This document shows positions 1,668 through 18,676 of a stretch of DNA of 64,000 nt, one piece after another. Origin of the DNA: an alpha proteobacterium U9-1i (GTDB lineage: Bacteria > Pseudomonadota > Alphaproteobacteria > Caulobacterales > Aquidulcibacteraceae). The stretch covers positions 62,001-126,000 of the forward strand of contig BBSY01000001.1 of the NCBI GenBank assembly GCA_000974665.1. The letters are read 5' to 3'. A model generated the notes under the pieces. That model was not told the DNA's origin. It ran no database searches and was given only the letters and a program-made list of their open reading frames with translations. Both the position numbers and the translations under genes were made by a program. Within the stretch, counting starts at the first letter, position 1, and each line of letters begins with the position of its first letter.

Positions 1668-2359
1668 CCGCGCTCACTGAGGCGGCGCGAGAGACGCGCG
1701 TTCACTTCATCACTGAACGTATCGAGACGATCGCCGAAGCGATCGAGATCGCCGGTGAACTTGTTGTAGAAAATCACCGCCGGGATCGCCGCGACCAAGC
1801 CGAGCGCGGTCGCGAACAAAGCTTCGGCGATGCCGGGCGCGACGACGGCGAGATTGGTTTGTTGCTGCGCGGCGATGTTGGTGAAGGCGTTCATGATGCC
1901 CCACACGGTGCCGAACAAGCCGATGAACGGCGCTGACGCACCGACCGTCGCCAGCACGCCCATGTTGCGCGAGGCGCGGCCCATCTCGCGTGAGATCTGC
2001 GCCGACATCAGCCGGTCGACGCGTTCGATCAGCATGCCCGCAGCTTCGGCGCTCAAGCCCCCTGCGCGGCGCGCTTCGCGCCACTCGCGCGCAGCGGCCG
2101 CGAACACACGCGACAGCGCATCGCGGGCTTTGTCATCGCCGCCGCCCTCGAAGTCCTCAAACGAACGGCCTGACCAGAACGCCCGCTCAAACTTGCGCGC
2201 ATTGCTTTCAAGCTCGCCGAATTGCAGCCATTTATCGACGGCGATGGCCCAGGACCACACCGAGGCCACCGCCAACACCAACATAACGCCCTTCACGACA
2301 GGATCGGCCTGAAGAAAAAGGCTCAATACTGTCATCTGGTTCTCGACGCCGGATTCCAT
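1664..2359 (-). CDS. tolQ: Tol-Pal system proton channel subunit TolQ
   Basis: A 231-residue MotA/TolQ/ExbB protein with three predicted membrane segments, including GASAPFIGLFGTVWGIMNAF (shared by the family) and LFATALGLVAAIPAVIFYNKF. The ATG at 2359 is preferred over an upstream in-frame TTG at 2401 because GGGAG lies 6 nt ahead of it. It forms the inner-membrane proton channel with TolR. The gene overlaps tolR by 4 nt and follows ybgC by about 84 nt. Confidence 0.95.
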   Translation of the reverse strand: MESGVENQMTVLSLFLQADPVVKGVMLVLAVASVWSWAIAVDKWLQFGELESNARKFERAFWSGRSFEDFEGGGDDKARDALSRVFAAAAREWREARRAGGLSAEAAGMLIERVDRLMSAQISREMGRASRNMGVLATVGASAPFIGLFGTVWGIMNAFTNIAAQQQTNLAVVAPGIAEALFATALGLVAAIPAVIFYNKFTGDLDRFGDRLDTFSDEVNARLSRRLSERG

Positions 2360-2443
2360 GCTTGCTCCCGCATCCGCGGCCGTTTCGTCAGCCGCGCCCA
2401 ACCCCTGGTGTAGAGCCAGGGGAGTTTGTCAAAAGGTGGACGC

Positions 2444-2893
2444 TCAAGGCCCAAGAAATGGTTTAAGCCGCTCTAAAAGCAGGGTTGGCGGCTTCCGGGG
2501 GCGGCCTGTGAGGCTGATGCAACAGACTTCGACCTTGGCGGACACCAAGGCCTCCCCCGCCCGCTCCAGCGTCTGGGTGATGAAAATGCGCGGTCCGCGC
2601 ATCGTTTCGAACACGGTTCGCACCAAAAGCGCGTCATCGATTCGCGCCGGCTTCAGGAAGTCGAGCTCCATACGGTTGACCGCGAAAGCGATGGGAGAAT
2701 CGCCCTCAAGCAGCGCTGTGTGATGGATCCCCGCGACGCGCAGAAAGTCGCTCCTCCCGCGCTCGAAAAACCGCAGATAATTGGCGTGATAGACGATGCC
2801 CGAGAAGTCGGTGTCTTCATAATAGACCCGCACCGGCAAACGATGCTCGCGCCCCGCGAAGGCGCCCGCGTTTGGAAGGTCGTTCTGACTCAT
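2444..2893 (-). CDS. ybgC: Tol-Pal-associated acyl-CoA thioesterase YbgC (hotdog fold)
   Basis: A 149-residue single-hotdog thioesterase. The motif YYEDTDFSGIVYHANYLRFFERGR near residues 24-47 carries the catalytic Asp and the family signature D-x-x-G-I-V-Y-H. YbgC opens tol-pal operons in many proteobacteria, and here it sits upstream of tolQ on the same strand. The open frame extends another 165 codons upstream, but the ATG at 2893 gives normal family length and the extension overlaps the divergent gene. Confidence 0.93.
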   Translation of the reverse strand: MSQNDLPNAGAFAGREHRLPVRVYYEDTDFSGIVYHANYLRFFERGRSDFLRVAGIHHTALLEGDSPIAFAVNRMELDFLKPARIDDALLVRTVFETMRGPRIFITQTLERAGEALVSAKVEVCCISLTGRPRKPPTLLLERLKPFLGP

Positions 2894-2945
2894 AACGCCA
2901 TGATGGCGATGGCAGCGGCGGCAGCAAGCGGATAGACACCGACAA

Positions 2946-3590
2946 ATGGACGCCGCGCTCGCAATATTGTCGCTGATCGGCACCGCCGTCTTCGCTGCCT
3001 CCGGCGCCCTGGTGGCCGACGAAGACCGGCTTGACCTGGTCGGCGCGCTCTTCCTGGCGGTCGCCACGGCCATTGGCGGCGGCACTATCGTTGATCTGCT
3101 GATCGGCCACACGCCGGTGCGCTGGATCGAAACACCGACCACCCTGTGGCTCGCCGCCGCCGCGGGCACGGCAACGTTCCTGCTGACGCGCGTGCTACGC
3201 GGCGGCAAACACGCCTCGATCACGCACGCGGCGTTGTTGTGGGCCGACGCCGCAGGGCTCGCCGTGTTCACCGCTACAGGCATGGAGCGCCTCAGTGCGC
3301 TCGACATCGATCCGGTGGTTTGCGTCTTCCTCGCGGCGATCGGCGCGTCCGGCGGCGGCATCCTGCGCGATGTGCTCGCCAACCGCACGCCAATCGTGTT
3401 CTCGCCGGAAACCGAACTCTACGTCACCGCGGCGTTCGCAGGGGGCGCGGCCTATTACGCTGCCGAAGCATTCACAAACGCGCCCCAAGCGCCGCTGATC
3501 GTTGCGCTAGTCGTCACCGGCGCCGTGCGCGCGGCGGGCATCTTGTTTCACATCAAGCTGGGAACCATGCGGCGCGCGACCGACGCTTAG
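2946..3590 (+). CDS. TRIC/UPF0126-family membrane protein (YadS/YicG-like)
   Basis: A 214-residue hydrophobic protein with about seven membrane helices and two internally related halves. Each half carries a Gly-rich motif (AVATAIGGGTIVDLLIG near residue 38 and AIGASGGGILRDVLANRTPIVF near 130). This is the pattern of the UPF0126 family, whose members resemble trimeric intracellular cation channels. It is divergent from ybgC with a 52-nt gap, and its stop overlaps the stop of the convergent acyltransferase by 4 nt. The transported ion is not evident. Confidence 0.85.
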   Translation: MDAALAILSLIGTAVFAASGALVADEDRLDLVGALFLAVATAIGGGTIVDLLIGHTPVRWIETPTTLWLAAAAGTATFLLTRVLRGGKHASITHAALLWADAAGLAVFTATGMERLSALDIDPVVCVFLAAIGASGGGILRDVLANRTPIVFSPETELYVTAAFAGGAAYYAAEAFTNAPQAPLIVALVVTGAVRAAGILFHIKLGTMRRATDA

Positions 3591-14257: not shown

Positions 14258-14863
14258 CTAGCGGCTCACTTCTTTCAAAGCGGCGCGGATCAGTTCTGGC
14301 GCGGGTGCGGCGGCATCGAATTGCTTAGCCGCACTCGCCACGGCGCGCGCCGCGCTCGATTGATCGATGCCCAGATTGACGAGCGCCGACACCGCTTCCG
14401 CGCGGGCGCCGCTAATAGAAGGCGCTCCCCGCGGCGCGAGCGCTGCGGCCGTCAGCGAGCCCTTTGGTCCCGCTTTGCCCGCAAGCTCCTGCACGATGCG
14501 CGCAGCCAGCTTTGGGCCGACGCCATTGGCGCGTGAGACCGAGGCTTTGTCCTGCAACGCAATCGCGTCAGCCAACTGCTCGGGCGGAAGCACATCGAGG
14601 ATCGCCAGCGCAACTTTCGCGCCCACACCGGGGATCGATTGCAGATGCACGAACCAGGCACGCTCATCTTCGCTGGCGAAGCCGAACAGCTTGATCGCGT
14701 CCTCGCGCACGTGGGTTTCGATCATCACCCGCGCCGGCGCACCGGTTTCCAGTTTCGACAGGGTGCGCGCGCTCGCCTGCACCAAATACCCGACGCCACC
14801 GACTTCAATCAGCGCGCTATCTTCGCCAATGGCCGCAACTATGCCGTTCAAGGACCCGATCAT
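14258..14863 (-). CDS. ruvA: Holliday junction DNA helicase subunit RuvA
   Basis: A 201-residue RuvA. It has an N-terminal OB-fold domain (MIGSLNGIVAAIGEDSALIEVGGVGY), helix-hairpin-helix motifs (IPGVGAKVALAILD and ANGVGPKLAARIVQEL) and a flexible linker. The C-terminal domain III (VSALVNLGIDQSSAARAV) contacts RuvB. The ATG at 14863 has GGAGA upstream. An in-frame extension of 23 codons is rejected because MIGSLNG is the canonical N terminus. Confidence 0.97.
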   Translation of the reverse strand: MIGSLNGIVAAIGEDSALIEVGGVGYLVQASARTLSKLETGAPARVMIETHVREDAIKLFGFASEDERAWFVHLQSIPGVGAKVALAILDVLPPEQLADAIALQDKASVSRANGVGPKLAARIVQELAGKAGPKGSLTAAALAPRGAPSISGARAEAVSALVNLGIDQSSAARAVASAAKQFDAAAPAPELIRAALKEVSR

Positions 14864-15036
14864 TCTGATGTCTCCGCGTCCAGGCTTGGCTGGATTCGCC
14901 CGCCGGCGAAACGACTTGCGAGACGTTCGCACGAGTCAAACGCAACGGGCCGTGTTATCGATTCCCTTGCAGGGGCAATGGTTTTGCGAACCGCTCGCAG
15001 GAGTGGCGATCGCAAGCATGTGCGGGGATGTGACCC

Positions 15037-15738
15037 ATGGCCGATAAGAAAGACGAGAAGAAGCCGCTGAACCGGCGCTCGTTCATGAGCCGCGTCGCAG
15101 GCGCGGCGGTGATCGCGGGCGGCGCGACAGCAATCGTCACCGGCGAGGCTTCAGCGCAAAATTATACCGGCCGCACCGATAGCGACACGGGCAGCGGCGC
15201 AGACCGCTCCGGCTACGGCCGCACTGGCGTGACAGATGGCGATAGTGGCGGCGGCTCGGACCGCGCCGGCTACGGCCGCGGCGGCCAACGCGGCGTTTCC
15301 GATAGCGATAGCGGCGCCTATGCCGACCCGGCCGGGCGCGGACGTGGCTCATCCGGCGTCACAGATTCCGATTCCGGCGCTTACGCTGACCCCGCTGGCC
15401 GCGGACGCGGCGGCCGCACTGGCGTCACTGATGGCGACAGCGGCCAGTATGCGGACCCAGCCGGTCGCGGACGCGGCGGCGGCGGTCGTGGCCAATCAGG
15501 TCTCACCGACAGCGACACCGGTTCAGGCGCAGACCGCGCCGGCAACGGGCGCGGCGGCGGCCGTCAAGGCGTCTATGGCGGCGGCAACACCGGCTATACC
15601 GATAGCGATTCCGGTTCGATGTCCGATCCCGGCGGCAACGGACGCGGGCCGCGTCGCGGCCAGCGTACCGGCATCACCGATGGCGATTCCGGCTCAACGT
15701 CGGACGCGTCGGGTTACGGCCGCGGCTCGGATCGCTAA
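15037..15738 (+). CDS. Tat-exported protein with eight Asp/Gly-rich repeats
   Basis: A 233-residue protein. Residues 10-40 form a twin-arginine signal (NRRSFM, hydrophobic AGAAVIAGG, cleavage after EASA). The mature part is almost entirely eight repeats of 21-30 residues with the core [TS]-D-[SG]-D-[ST]-G-x2-[AS]-D-x-[ASG]-G-x-G-R. They start near residues 47, 65, 88, 109, 131, 157, 187 and 213. The DxDxG...D spacing resembles calcium loops and the GRG tails resemble RNA- or sugar-binding low-complexity tails. There is no Cys. It precedes the cupin oxygenase gene by 6 nt and probably shares its mRNA. I do not recognise a named family. Confidence 0.75.
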   Translation: MADKKDEKKPLNRRSFMSRVAGAAVIAGGATAIVTGEASAQNYTGRTDSDTGSGADRSGYGRTGVTDGDSGGGSDRAGYGRGGQRGVSDSDSGAYADPAGRGRGSSGVTDSDSGAYADPAGRGRGGRTGVTDGDSGQYADPAGRGRGGGGRGQSGLTDSDTGSGADRAGNGRGGGRQGVYGGGNTGYTDSDSGSMSDPGGNGRGPRRGQRTGITDGDSGSTSDASGYGRGSDR

Positions 15739-15744
15739 GCGCAC

Positions 15745-16923
15745 ATGCGCGTCAGCGAGCCGTGGCTCGACGATCCGCTTGGCTATCTGATCGGCGCCGA
15801 ACGGGTCGTCGAATTTCTGGCGCGCGGTTACGAGCGTGATCCGCTCGTGGTGCATCACAACGCGCCAAAACGCTTCGAAGGCCTGCTCTCAATCGACGCC
15901 GTGGACCGCATCGTCACTGGTACGGATCTGCGCGAAGGTCAGCTCGATATGGCCAACGCCTCGCGCCAAATGATGCGCTCGGACTATCTCGACGGCGCGG
16001 GCTATGTCGATCGCGGCGCGGTCGCCGAGCTGTATCGCGCCGGCTCCACCATCATCCTGAACCAGGCGCATCAACTCGATCCGACCCTCGGGCGACTGTG
16101 CCGCGGTCTGGAGCACACCTTTTCCGCCCATGTGCAAACCAATCTCTACCTCACGCCGCCAAACGCCCAAGGCTTCCGCACGCATTACGACAATCACGAC
16201 GTGCTCGTGATTCAGATCGAGGGCGAGAAGACGTGGCGCCTCTACGACAAACCGATCGACACACCCTATCGCGGCGAGGGCTTCGAGCTCGGCAAGTTCG
16301 AAGCCGGCGAACTGAAGCAGGAATTCACGCTGAAGGCCGGCGACTGCGCTTACGTGCCGCGCGGGCTGATGCACGACGCGCTGACACCCGGCGACGCTGC
16401 CTCGTTGCACATCACCATTGGCCTCATCACGCGCACCTGGGCCGATCTGATGTTGGAAGCCGTGTCCGAGGTCGCACTGCGCCGGGCCGAGTTCCGCAAG
16501 AGCTTGCCGGCGGGCTATGCGCGCACCGGCCACAACCGAGCGTCGGCACGCGCCTACATGGCGCAGCTGCTCAATATCGCTGCCCAGGAAGCGCTACTCG
16601 ATCCCGCGCTCGATCTCATAGCTGATGAATTCATCCGCTCCCGCCCCGCTGACAATCGCTTCGCTTTGCGCGATGCAATCAAGCCTGTTAGCGCGGACGA
16701 GAAATTCCAACTGAAGCGCCACGCACATTTCCGCCTGGCTGAGGACGGCGACAAGCTCGTGCTCATCTGTCCAGGCGGCGAACTAGACTTTGCGCCCACC
16801 GCGCGCGCCGCCATCGAACGCGCCCTCAACGGCAAGCCGTTCGCACCGAGCGAGCTTGGCGCCGACGACGCAACCACAATCGCGGCGCGCCTGCTGGCTT
16901 ATGGGTTGGTGGAGCGGTTCTAG
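15745..16923 (+). CDS. Cupin/JmjC-type Fe(II)/2-oxoglutarate oxygenase (ROXA/YcfD-like)
   Basis: A 392-residue cupin-4 protein. The metal triad is visible as His147 and Asp149 in FRTHYDNHDVLVIQIEGEK and His210 in YVPRGLMHDA. Residues 132-230 form the double-stranded helix, and a winged-helix-like C terminus (about 290-392) follows, as in ribosomal oxygenases. Relatives hydroxylate Arg or His side chains of ribosomal proteins. Here the gene is 6 nt downstream of the repeat protein, so I infer that the repeats are the substrate. No signal peptide, so it acts in the cytoplasm before Tat export. Confidence 0.8.
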   Translation: MRVSEPWLDDPLGYLIGAERVVEFLARGYERDPLVVHHNAPKRFEGLLSIDAVDRIVTGTDLREGQLDMANASRQMMRSDYLDGAGYVDRGAVAELYRAGSTIILNQAHQLDPTLGRLCRGLEHTFSAHVQTNLYLTPPNAQGFRTHYDNHDVLVIQIEGEKTWRLYDKPIDTPYRGEGFELGKFEAGELKQEFTLKAGDCAYVPRGLMHDALTPGDAASLHITIGLITRTWADLMLEAVSEVALRRAEFRKSLPAGYARTGHNRASARAYMAQLLNIAAQEALLDPALDLIADEFIRSRPADNRFALRDAIKPVSADEKFQLKRHAHFRLAEDGDKLVLICPGGELDFAPTARAAIERALNGKPFAPSELGADDATTIAARLLAYGLVERF

Positions 16924-17417
16924 CCGCCGGCCCGTCGACGGAAGCCGCCGTGCGCGGCGTGGCATAGCGCAACGCCTAACGCATCGGCGGCGTCAGCGGT
17001 GACATCACCGGCCGTCGGCAACAAGCGCCGCACCATGAAGGCGATCTGGGTTTTGTCAGCCGCGCCTGAACCAACGACGGCTTTTTTGATTGTCGCCGGC
17101 GAGTATTCCGCGACCACGACGCCGCTGCGCGCCGCCGCCGCCAGTGCAACGCCGCGCGCTTGGCCGAGCGCAAGAGCGGCGCGCGCGTTCGAGTTTACGA
17201 ACGTTTCTTCCACCGCCACCTCGTGCGGACGATGCTCTTCCATCACCCGCAAGAGGCCTTCGAACACGTCGTGCAAACGGCTGGCGAGTTGCTGCTGCAC
17301 GACCGGCTTGATCACGCCATGGGCGATGTACGTGAGACGCGAGCCTTCGCTCGCGACCAATCCCCAACCGCAACGATTGAGGCCCGGATCGATGCCAAGG
17401 ATCAACATGGCGCTCAT
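16920..17417 (-). CDS. ruvC: Crossover junction endodeoxyribonuclease RuvC
   Basis: A 165-residue RNase H-fold resolvase. Acidic catalytic residues lie in ILGIDPGLNRCGWG, VEETFVNSNARAALALGQARG and TADAADALGVALCHA. The ATG at 17417 overlaps the upstream membrane gene's stop by 4 nt, suggesting coupling; a second ATG at 17408 is possible. Its 3' end overlaps the convergent cupin gene by 4 nt. Separated from ruvA by the repeat protein/cupin pair. Confidence 0.97.
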   Translation of the reverse strand: MSAMLILGIDPGLNRCGWGLVASEGSRLTYIAHGVIKPVVQQQLASRLHDVFEGLLRVMEEHRPHEVAVEETFVNSNARAALALGQARGVALAAAARSGVVVAEYSPATIKKAVVGSGAADKTQIAFMVRRLLPTAGDVTADAADALGVALCHAAHGGFRRRAGG

Positions 17418-18676
17418 TGCTTTCGCTCCCGCGCATCCAGCGCGAGTCGCACCGCGACCGCCACATAGATCGTCCAGAATAAATTGTTGGCCTGCAGCGC
17501 ATGGCTTTCGCTCAACGTGTACAGCGCAAACGCCGCCAGAAACGCCGGCGCCCACAGCCCCGCATCAGCATTGAAGATAGCGCCCGCGCCGCGCCGCAAT
17601 GTCGCGAACAATTGGAGCGCAAACAAAACGACGCCCACGCGGCCAAGACCGAGCGCCAACTCAAGCCAACCCGAATGCGCCGACGCCACTTGCCAACGCA
17701 CGGCTTCGCGCACCCAATAGGCCGGCCCATTCTCTGGCAGCCAGAACGCGGAATAGCCGTAGCCGAGCCACGGCCGCGCTTCGACGAAACGTTGTGCGGC
17801 GTCCCAAATGTCGGTGCGGCCCGTCAGGGTAAGATCGCGGCCAATCATCGTGACGACCAGTTCGGGCGCCAAAAACACGATGCCGCCGCCAACGATAACC
17901 GCGCCAAGCGCGGAGGATACCACCACGATGGTCGCGATCGGCCCGCGCCGCATCAGCGCGCAGGCGACCATCACCATCAAACCAAGCGCACTGGCGATCA
18001 ACGCCGTCTTTGAGGTTGAGAGCAACACCAGCACGAACGCCGCAATCGCCGCGCCGATCCAAAAGCTCCGCCGCGCCGGCGCAACAATCGAGCATGCCGC
18101 GCAAATGGCGACGCCAAGCGCCATGATGCCGCCAAGCGTGTTCTTGTGCGTCCAAAGACCGGACCAGGCGCCCGGATGCTCGAACGTCATTGTGCCGACG
18201 TGCGGCGCAAGCAACGCGGTCGCGAACGAACCTGCGATCAGGGCAATGAACCCAAGCCCCAGCACTTCAACCAACTGCGGCCAACGATATCGCCACGCGA
18301 GATACAGTCCGAACGCCATGTTCAGCGCCAGCCAAACCGAACGCCGCAGCGTCGCGCCGGAATCGATGGACCAGAGCGTCGATACACCGGCGAGAAGCAG
18401 CAAGCCGACAAGCAGCGGTGCGGCTCCAGCCGCGCGCACCGCAGACGCACGGTCGCGCCAGATCGCCCAACCGAGAAAAGCATAGACCGGAACGAAGAAT
18501 ATCCGCGTCCAGCCTGGCGTCTCGGTCAGGCCCTGTGACTGCGCGATAGCGGCGAACAAGGGCTCAGAAAATTGGGCGAGGCAAAGTCCAGCCGCGATCG
18601 TTTCCAAGCGGTGCGGCACTGCTGGCGCGCGCGCGTGGGTTTCCTTCAGGTCGAGGGCCGATGTCGCCAGTGACAT
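17414..18676 (-). CDS. O-antigen ligase/polymerase-like membrane protein (Wzy/WaaL superfamily)
   Basis: A 420-residue protein with about eleven membrane helices and the Wzy_C-like region. That region includes GLWTHKNTLGGIMALG, STSKTALIASALGL and LTLTGRTDIWDAA, followed by WLGYGYSAFW. These are characteristic of the O-antigen ligase family, which joins or polymerises lipid-linked glycans in the periplasm. It is coupled to ruvC by a 4-nt overlap, an unusual partner. No other polysaccharide genes are adjacent, so the glycan is unknown. Confidence 0.83.
   Translation of the reverse strand: MSLATSALDLKETHARAPAVPHRLETIAAGLCLAQFSEPLFAAIAQSQGLTETPGWTRIFFVPVYAFLGWAIWRDRASAVRAAGAAPLLVGLLLLAGVSTLWSIDSGATLRRSVWLALNMAFGLYLAWRYRWPQLVEVLGLGFIALIAGSFATALLAPHVGTMTFEHPGAWSGLWTHKNTLGGIMALGVAICAACSIVAPARRSFWIGAAIAAFVLVLLSTSKTALIASALGLMVMVACALMRRGPIATIVVVSSALGAVIVGGGIVFLAPELVVTMIGRDLTLTGRTDIWDAAQRFVEARPWLGYGYSAFWLPENGPAYWVREAVRWQVASAHSGWLELALGLGRVGVVLFALQLFATLRRGAGAIFNADAGLWAPAFLAAFALYTLSESHALQANNLFWTIYVAVAVRLALDARERKQ

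Follow-up and report, generated by a model that had tools for sequence, protein, structure and literature searches.

A twin-arginine-signal repeat protein and an adjacent ROX-type oxygenase in Alphaproteobacteria: a probable system for aspartate hydroxylation before export

The window analyzed here is a stretch of 64,000 nucleotides from the alphaproteobacterium U9-1i (assembly GCA_000974665.1, contig BBSY01000001.1, positions 62,001 to 126,000), and the subject of this work is a pair of adjacent genes on its forward strand that probably encode a protein-modifying enzyme and its substrate. The first open reading frame (ORF), 15037-15738 (+), encodes a 233-aa protein, the presumed substrate, that combines a twin-arginine translocation (Tat) signal with eight DxDxGxxxDxxGxGR units. 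The second ORF, 15745-16923 (+), encodes a 392-aa JmjC oxygenase of the ROX/NO66-like type, dependent on Fe(II) and 2-oxoglutarate (2OG), which is the presumed repeat hydroxylase. The stop codon of the first ORF and the ATG of the second are separated by 6 nt (15739-15744). Thus, the ORFs bear out an earlier note on this DNA, which had described a Tat-signal protein with eight repeats followed after 6 nt by an oxygenase with an intact HxD...H triad.

The N-terminus of the repeat protein (LNRRSFMSRV...ASA) was recognized by eye as a Tat-type signal peptide of residues 1-40 (15037-15156, +), with probable cleavage between ASA and QN; the TAT_signal_seq model scores it at 13.7 bits, below its cut-off of 16.7. 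The repeat array (15178-15723, +) consists of eight 15-residue units of the form D-x-D-x-G-x3-D-x2-G-x-G-R that start at residues 48, 67, 89, 110, 132, 158, 189, and 215, all positions being hand-counted from the translation. The underlying DNA is barely repetitive, Tandem Repeats Finder reporting one 2.5-copy, 15-bp match in 14500-17500; for this reason, a recent DNA duplication was ruled out as the origin of the protein motif. Searches with the protein gave no match in Pfam at E up to 1 or among Protein Data Bank (PDB) sequences at E up to 0.1, and NCBIfam matches at the signal only. Likewise, the repeats of its relatives have no curated-family match (six proteins were compared with Pfam and eight with NCBIfam), all matches being confined to the signal or to fused domains. 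Frames with such repeats range from about 90 to 780 aa; in a first set of 96 frames, a pattern permitting unit lengths of 12 to 17 found units of 15 (466), 12 (159), and 16 (1) residues.

The oxygenase belongs to the Pfam family JmjC_2 (PF08007; 93.5 bits against a cut-off of 22, E 9e-27). Its metal ligands, H147 and D149 of the HxD motif (16183-16191, +) and H210 (16372-16374, +), are the same in all 25 sequences of an alignment that includes the window, and no signal peptide was seen on it by eye. The conserved lysine K162 presumably takes part in 2OG binding. Among PDB sequences, the closest are NO66 (E 2.5e-28) and MINA53, followed by YxbC (E 9e-10) and by YcfD at E 3e-5 and weaker. An AlphaFold model of the enzyme is of high confidence, with blocks of 83-97 from residue 71 on in the predicted local distance difference test (pLDDT), and Foldseek ranks its structural neighbors similarly: NO66 (E 3.3e-26), MINA53, then YcfD (best 9.2e-17) and YxbC. 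The ROX fold extends beyond the JmjC core, the model aligning with NO66 chain 4ccn_A over 439 columns (template modeling score 0.67, E 5.2e-26). The earlier assignment to the ROXA/YcfD cupin class can be refined in one respect, the nearest kin being NO66 and then MINA53, with YcfD further away in both sequence and fold.

Tyr328 and Ser421 of NO66 contact the substrate His (PMC9994133, excerpt); the NO66 numbering follows that source, and the offset of 175 is our own count on the PDB alignment. The equivalent of Tyr328 is retained in the window enzyme as Y135, whereas that of Ser421 is replaced by Gly226, and all 35 close enzymes have Gly here, as does L085, which is listed apart. The enzyme thus fails the comparison with the histidyl-hydroxylase pocket, and conservation counts over 127 repeat proteins revealed no conserved His in the repeats. 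Candidates for contacts with a repeat Asp include Q131, N133, Y135, H151, and R206, several of which are shared by remote enzymes.

The distribution of the two families across genomes links them closely. Three overlapping genome samples (61 relatives, 337 genomes of the class, and 388 of the phylum) were searched for the repeat with 28 aligned repeat proteins (A1) and, for the enzyme, with the protein itself in the relatives sample and with the alignment A2 in the other two; the class and phylum searches covered the best 7 or 8 repeat and 4 or 5 enzyme candidates per genome, so weak genes could escape. Among the relatives, 32 of 61 genomes have an enzyme match, which is close (E 1e-95 or better) in 27; the repeat is present in 26 of these 27 genomes and in none of the other 34. 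The one miss, G015, is a 65%-complete assembly in which the enzyme gene is cut by a contig end and no repeat was found at E up to 1. In the class sample, the enzyme scores form two groups, with at least 307 bits in 12 of 337 genomes and a next match of 163.5 bits; 11 of these 12 genomes yielded a repeat and the remaining 325 none. In the phylum sample, eight of 388 genomes have an enzyme of at least 356 bits, and the repeat occurs in exactly these eight and in none of the other 380. Merging the samples by genome handle gives repeats in 39 of 41 enzyme-bearing genomes, and the repeat-positive genomes span eight family labels (f1, f3, f4, f8, f17, f20, f27, and f132). Since the genomes are related, these cases are not independent events.

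The genes are also neighbors. Seventy named loci, many of them from the same assemblies as the sampled genomes, were compared; the enzyme is close (33-70% identity) in 58 of them and remote (27-34%) in the other 12. A repeat gene lies near the enzyme gene in 53 of the 58 close-enzyme loci, two of which (the Gammaproteobacterial L076 and L078) were counted by the looser motif DSDxxDxSGR, versus none of the 12 remote loci; this frequency excludes pairing by chance. At 51 loci, at least one repeat gene is located upstream on the same strand, and 25 of these carry two to four repeat-bearing frames upstream (in L066, one gene is split). The repeat gene is downstream on the same strand in L072 and downstream on the opposite strand in L074. 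Three of the five loci that lack a repeat gene begin at a contig edge (L047, L048, and L087). Clustering by BLAST of the neighboring frames of 55 loci revealed no widely shared third gene such as a protease, a transporter, or a second enzyme; the common clusters include shadow frames and genes that we take to be ruvA, ruvB, ruvC, and Maricaulis housekeeping genes. The earlier note had proposed to look for the two families together across genomes and had named a repeat family living mostly without a cupin neighbor as evidence against its idea; co-occurrence and neighborhood were both found, and the idea was not refuted. Viewed as a system for ribosomally synthesized and post-translationally modified peptides (RiPPs), the pair has a putative precursor gene beside the enzyme gene at the same 53 loci, and the enzyme would presumably act on that precursor.

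In phylogenetic trees of the oxygenases, 36 enzymes (24 of the 58 named loci, 11 from the sampled genomes, and the window) were labeled as repeat-associated by closeness and not by an observed repeat, and a nearby repeat gene was seen for 34 of them, the exceptions being L068 and L085. All 36 lie behind one branch supported at 100/100. In a second tree, calculated with plasmid-encoded relatives and without a long-branch enzyme that fell inside this group (L162), the same 36 enzymes group together at 99/95.

Many of the enzyme-bearing genomes contain additional repeat genes, either on separate contigs or at a distance on the contig of the enzyme. Such genes, unlinked to the enzyme in the same genomes, argue against mere operon hitchhiking. 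Of 127 repeat proteins, 124 have a loosely defined RR motif ahead of their first repeat, the other three being cut or masked frames; the small two-repeat proteins of loci L167-L173, which stand outside this count, also show RR by eye.

Co-occurrence and adjacency strongly support the enzyme and the repeats as one system. We consider it probable, judging from the sequences compared, that the two genes form an enzyme-substrate pair in which the ROX-type oxygenase hydroxylates Asp residues of the repeats before Tat export. The proposed pathway would include the following steps: (i) the cytoplasmic JmjC oxygenase uses Fe(II), O2, and 2OG to act on the repeats, (ii) oxidation, most simply beta-hydroxylation, takes place at one or more of the three invariant Asp of each D-x-D-(x)2 or 5-D repeat, and (iii) the modified protein is exported by the Tat system to the periplasm or envelope, be it a free protein, a lipoprotein, or a fusion with a domain that acts on or binds peptidoglycan. 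We infer from this arrangement the action of the enzyme on the repeats, Asp as its target, the hydroxyl product, the export, and the function, for which a metal-binding or wall-associated role appears the likeliest.

Modification dependent on iron(II) and 2OG belongs to the cytoplasm, and the Tat system, working post-translationally, would leave time for it. The usual reason for choosing Tat, the folding of a protein around a cofactor before export, is removed in this case, since the repeats are modeled as disordered. The Tat export of a seemingly cofactor-free protein would be explained if a 2OG-dependent modification must come first, in the cytoplasm. The logic of the Tat route put forward in the earlier note is supported by the RR patterns, export itself being a prediction.

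The conservation of the repeats bears on which residue would be modified. In the set of 127 non-redundant proteins, chosen for having at least three units, each fixed column of the pattern was freed in turn. The Asp residues of the 15-mer are almost invariant (D1 in 578 of 579 units, D3 in 578 of 578, and D9 in 578 of 578), and so are those of the 12-mer (D1 in 192 of 193, D3 in 192 of 195, and D6 in 192 of 192); no replacement of Asp by Glu was found in these column counts. The Arg residue, with 578 of 608, varies more than any other fixed position of the 15-mer, and it is retained in 192 of 201 units of the 12-mer.

Two divergent systems lack the Arg altogether. One is L149, the second close enzyme of the genome G384, which adjoins a 90-aa RR-signal protein with the Arg-less units DYDPNDPIGGG and DTDPVDPIGEG in the stretch SDYDPNDPIGGGSDTDPVDPIGEG. 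The other is encoded on the Streptomyces clavuligerus plasmid pF1D18A. The oxygenase of this locus is a relative (39% identity over 255 aa, E 1e-46) that has the residue of the window enzyme at all 15 compared positions and scores 259 bits against the A2 profile, compared with 308-612 bits for close and 110-151 bits for remote enzymes. Located 91 nt upstream of its gene is a 48-aa peptide with neither Arg nor Gly and with no Tat signal, which ends in IADNDPSDPPIAIADPDPFDPVI, comprising two DxDPxDP units; the genes that follow are those of an S9 peptidase, read from the other strand, and of an ABC transporter. Units of the D.D..D type occurred at least twice in only 3 of 18,826 short frames of the examined loci, which makes chance an unlikely explanation, even if these frames are no random sample. 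Placing the S. clavuligerus enzyme with the repeat group costs two changes on the tree with plasmid relatives, where it pairs weakly (80/42) with a Dolichospermum enzyme near the base of the 36.

Only the D-x-D...D core is common to the window, L149, and S. clavuligerus systems, which makes Asp the better target; the Arg and the Gly-rich tail seem to have been added in a particular lineage. The earlier note had left the choice as Asp or, alternatively, Arg; the near-invariant Asp and the Arg-less repeats narrow it to Asp as the more likely target. We regard as unlikely the alternative that the enzyme forms C-3 hydroxyarginine in the repeats, as YcfD does on ribosomal protein L16, with the Asp residues serving for binding only. 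The membership of the arginyl hydroxylase YcfD in the same fold family, the overall retention of Arg, and the SGR kept in two Gammaproteobacterial proteins speak for it, whereas the absence of Arg next to L149 and from the Streptomyces peptide, its lowest rank among the fixed positions of the 15-mer (though not of the 12-mer), and the poorer fit of YcfD structures to the enzyme model (best E 9e-17, against 3e-26 for NO66) speak against it.

Even with Asp as the target, the product may go beyond plain hydroxy-Asp, through desaturation, further oxidation, or a hydroxyl-based cross-link. Such chemistry is known for 2OG oxygenases, for example desaturation by FIH (PMC9994133, excerpt), and SmaX turns hydroxy-Asp into aminomalonate (cited in PMC13097080, excerpt). 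No widely shared third gene that might carry out a second step is present among the neighbors of the 55 loci, and we hold this variant to be improbable.

Highly unlikely, in our view, is the alternative that the repeats are unmodified Ca-type metal loops and that the oxygenase merely co-travels with them, modifying some other target, for example a ribosomal protein, or being regulated via the repeat protein: the Asp spacing does resemble that of acidic metal-binding loops, but no Pfam metal-binding repeat matches, the enzyme-bearing genomes have extra unlinked repeat genes while the 34, 325, and 380 genomes without this type of enzyme yielded none, and in two cases, L149 and Streptomyces, a divergent enzyme is accompanied by a divergent repeat. 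In its favor, ROX-family enzymes have known ribosomal substrates (PMC9994133, excerpt).

Several observations weigh against the hydroxylation of repeat Asp by the neighboring oxygenase. At L068 and L085, a close enzyme is flanked by DNA in which no repeat gene was found; the genome that includes the L085 contig, G260, is the miss of the class sample, and scoring all of its candidates at E up to 1 gave no repeat. The L162 enzyme, found inside the repeat-associated branch, comes from a genome (G695) in which no repeat reached an E of 0.001 (the best being 0.029), and it is itself very divergent. The Dolichospermum relative, weakly paired with the Streptomyces one, has no DxD peptide. Gly226 is present in 14 of 19 remote enzymes as well and, being so common there, is no marker of repeat users. 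The invariance of Asp could equally mean metal binding without modification. The conservation set, by construction, leaves out any protein in which every repeat lacks an Asp or the Arg; in the 12-mer, one Gly (192 of 205) ranks below the Arg, and L076 and L078 have lost a Gly but kept SGR, so that Arg cannot be called irrelevant throughout. Finally, the last two repeats of the window protein were modeled by AlphaFold together with the enzyme, by reading through the natural TAA into the in-frame oxygenase; the repeats were predicted at a pLDDT of about 31, and no sign of their binding to the enzyme was seen. A repeat protein with Cys-bracketed units was likewise modeled poorly, at a pLDDT of 49. 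Docking by fold prediction was abandoned, as AlphaFold did not order any repeat against the enzyme.

The Cys-bracketed units suggest the shape of the repeat. Cys residues at positions -2 and +2 of the 15-mer come as a pair: both are present in 25 units, one in 1, and neither in 548 (Fisher p 7e-43, with rows that are related), and the bracketed units were found at 19 loci; for the 12-mer, the respective numbers are 2, 1, and 189. Because the flanking Cys come as a pair, the ends of the unit must sit close to each other, as in a closed loop. Each repeat would thus be a small Asp-rich loop, closed by a disulfide in some lineages.

Domain fusions and signals of the repeat proteins, linked and unlinked, point indirectly to the envelope as their location. 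In L112, 14 repeats are fused to Peptidase_M23 (E 3.9e-13), and in L146 the repeats are fused to PG_binding_1 (E 1.7e-18). Thirty-four of 127 repeat proteins have a lipobox-like pattern behind the signal, that of L009 being plainly false. At three loci, a repeat gene is located inside the ftsQ-ftsA-ftsZ-lpxC cluster: those of L106 (2440-3114) and L107 (2530-3261, frame), both of one genus, are flanked by ftsA and ftsZ and read from the opposite strand, and that of L136 (2071-3093, frame), from another family, stands between ftsZ and lpxC in the same direction. This placement also suggests the envelope and perhaps cell division, three loci being few.

Taken further, these features would define a new class of envelope proteins, in which a ROX-type enzyme hydroxylates Asp in many tandem D-x-D...D loops before Tat export to give a genetically encoded poly-hydroxyaspartate scaffold for metal binding, either free, anchored by a lipid, or fused to peptidoglycan enzymes; with a relative modifying the Streptomyces DxDPxDP peptide, the repeats and RiPP-like peptides would share a recognition core. 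We offer this extended scheme tentatively, as a possibility that we do not yet favor.

Comparison with known systems revealed partial likenesses. The window enzyme has the fold, the HxD...H triad, and the conserved lysine K162 in common with NO66 (RIOX1), MINA53 (RIOX2), and YcfD of PF08007. The substrate of these ribosomal oxygenases is ribosomal, whereas here the gene neighbors and the co-occurrence point to an exported repeat protein. HxsA proteins with His-Xaa-Ser repeats are exported repeat proteins with dedicated modifying enzymes; they have a different repeat, and the present pair has no widely shared third gene beside it (radical SAM partners elsewhere were not searched for). One fusion protein, L146, scores 34.2 bits against the HxsA model (TIGR03979), far under its cut-off of 121.65, and its best stretch, residues 154-271, overlaps the peptidoglycan-binding domain. 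AspH, which beta-hydroxylates Asp/Asn, acts on acidic residues of secreted proteins, as proposed here, but in EGF-like domains, a repeat that is unrelated. It is set apart from the triad enzymes (PMC13168262, excerpt). The RiPP ornithine hydroxylases BipG/BpmG and PbsQ are likewise JmjC/cupin oxygenases acting on an encoded precursor; as described in excerpts of PMC12257519 and PMC12707348, their clusters make small cross-linked peptides with many enzymes, unlike the single enzyme and the longer repeat proteins with a Tat-type signal considered here. SmaO of a graspetide cluster is alike in the proposed reaction, Asp beta-hydroxylation of a ribosomal precursor; it acts on the N-terminus of a linear graspetide precursor and is compared here by description and not by enzyme family (cited in PMC13097080, excerpt).

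No description of the repeat-oxygenase pair was found in the open-access literature, subscription papers lying outside that scope, and there is a real chance that the pair represents an undescribed class of modified cell-envelope protein. Few substrates of bacterial protein hydroxylation are known. The ROX family itself is known mainly for ribosomal proteins (PMC9994133, excerpt). Against this background, genomic analysis alone yields hundreds of predicted sites, 578 15-mers and 192 12-mers in 127 proteins, with the common core D-x-D-(x)2 or 5-D, and the two-gene system can be cleanly tested. If correct, the prediction would mean that Alphaproteobacteria have a novel class of modified envelope proteins, and it would provide a genetically programmable hydroxy-Asp scaffold.

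Some further observations concern plasmid-encoded ROX-like cupins. The plasmid searches matched 141 and 134 records, and eight regions (L174-L181) were examined, with cupins from Dolichospermum, Streptomyces, Streptantibioticus, Paraburkholderia, and E. coli; the others were set aside, since only the S. clavuligerus region had a frame of 25-499 aa with at least two D.D..D units. This region (L174, 5763-7158 of the pF1D18A locus) is a candidate for a short, RiPP-like form of the system described here. In the Dolichospermum plasmid (L176, 2640-5125), upstream of the ROX relative is a 71-aa peptide with a double-glycine site and a repeated RSSAQL core, which together with the enzyme possibly makes a different RiPP. 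The 7.9 kb E. coli plasmid pHUSEC41-3 (L181, 391-3592) encodes a hypothetical protein, an ABC transporter, and a cupin in a row, which could be a peptide-tailoring cluster; the plasmid search with 134 records matched 25 from Escherichia.

Among the repeat proteins themselves, that of L109 (1217-2470) has a C-terminal region of about 200 aa, the protein giving no Pfam match at E up to 0.1, and in L137 the gene of a curlin-repeat protein is located near that of a 364-aa variant repeat protein (1407-1985 and 2330-3421). In the window, the pair is flanked by genes on the minus strand that we take to be ruvA (14258-14932) and ruvC (16920-17555). Ruv-like neighbors are present in about 30 of the 55 compared loci, with a ruvA-like cluster in 30 and a ruvC-like one in 26.

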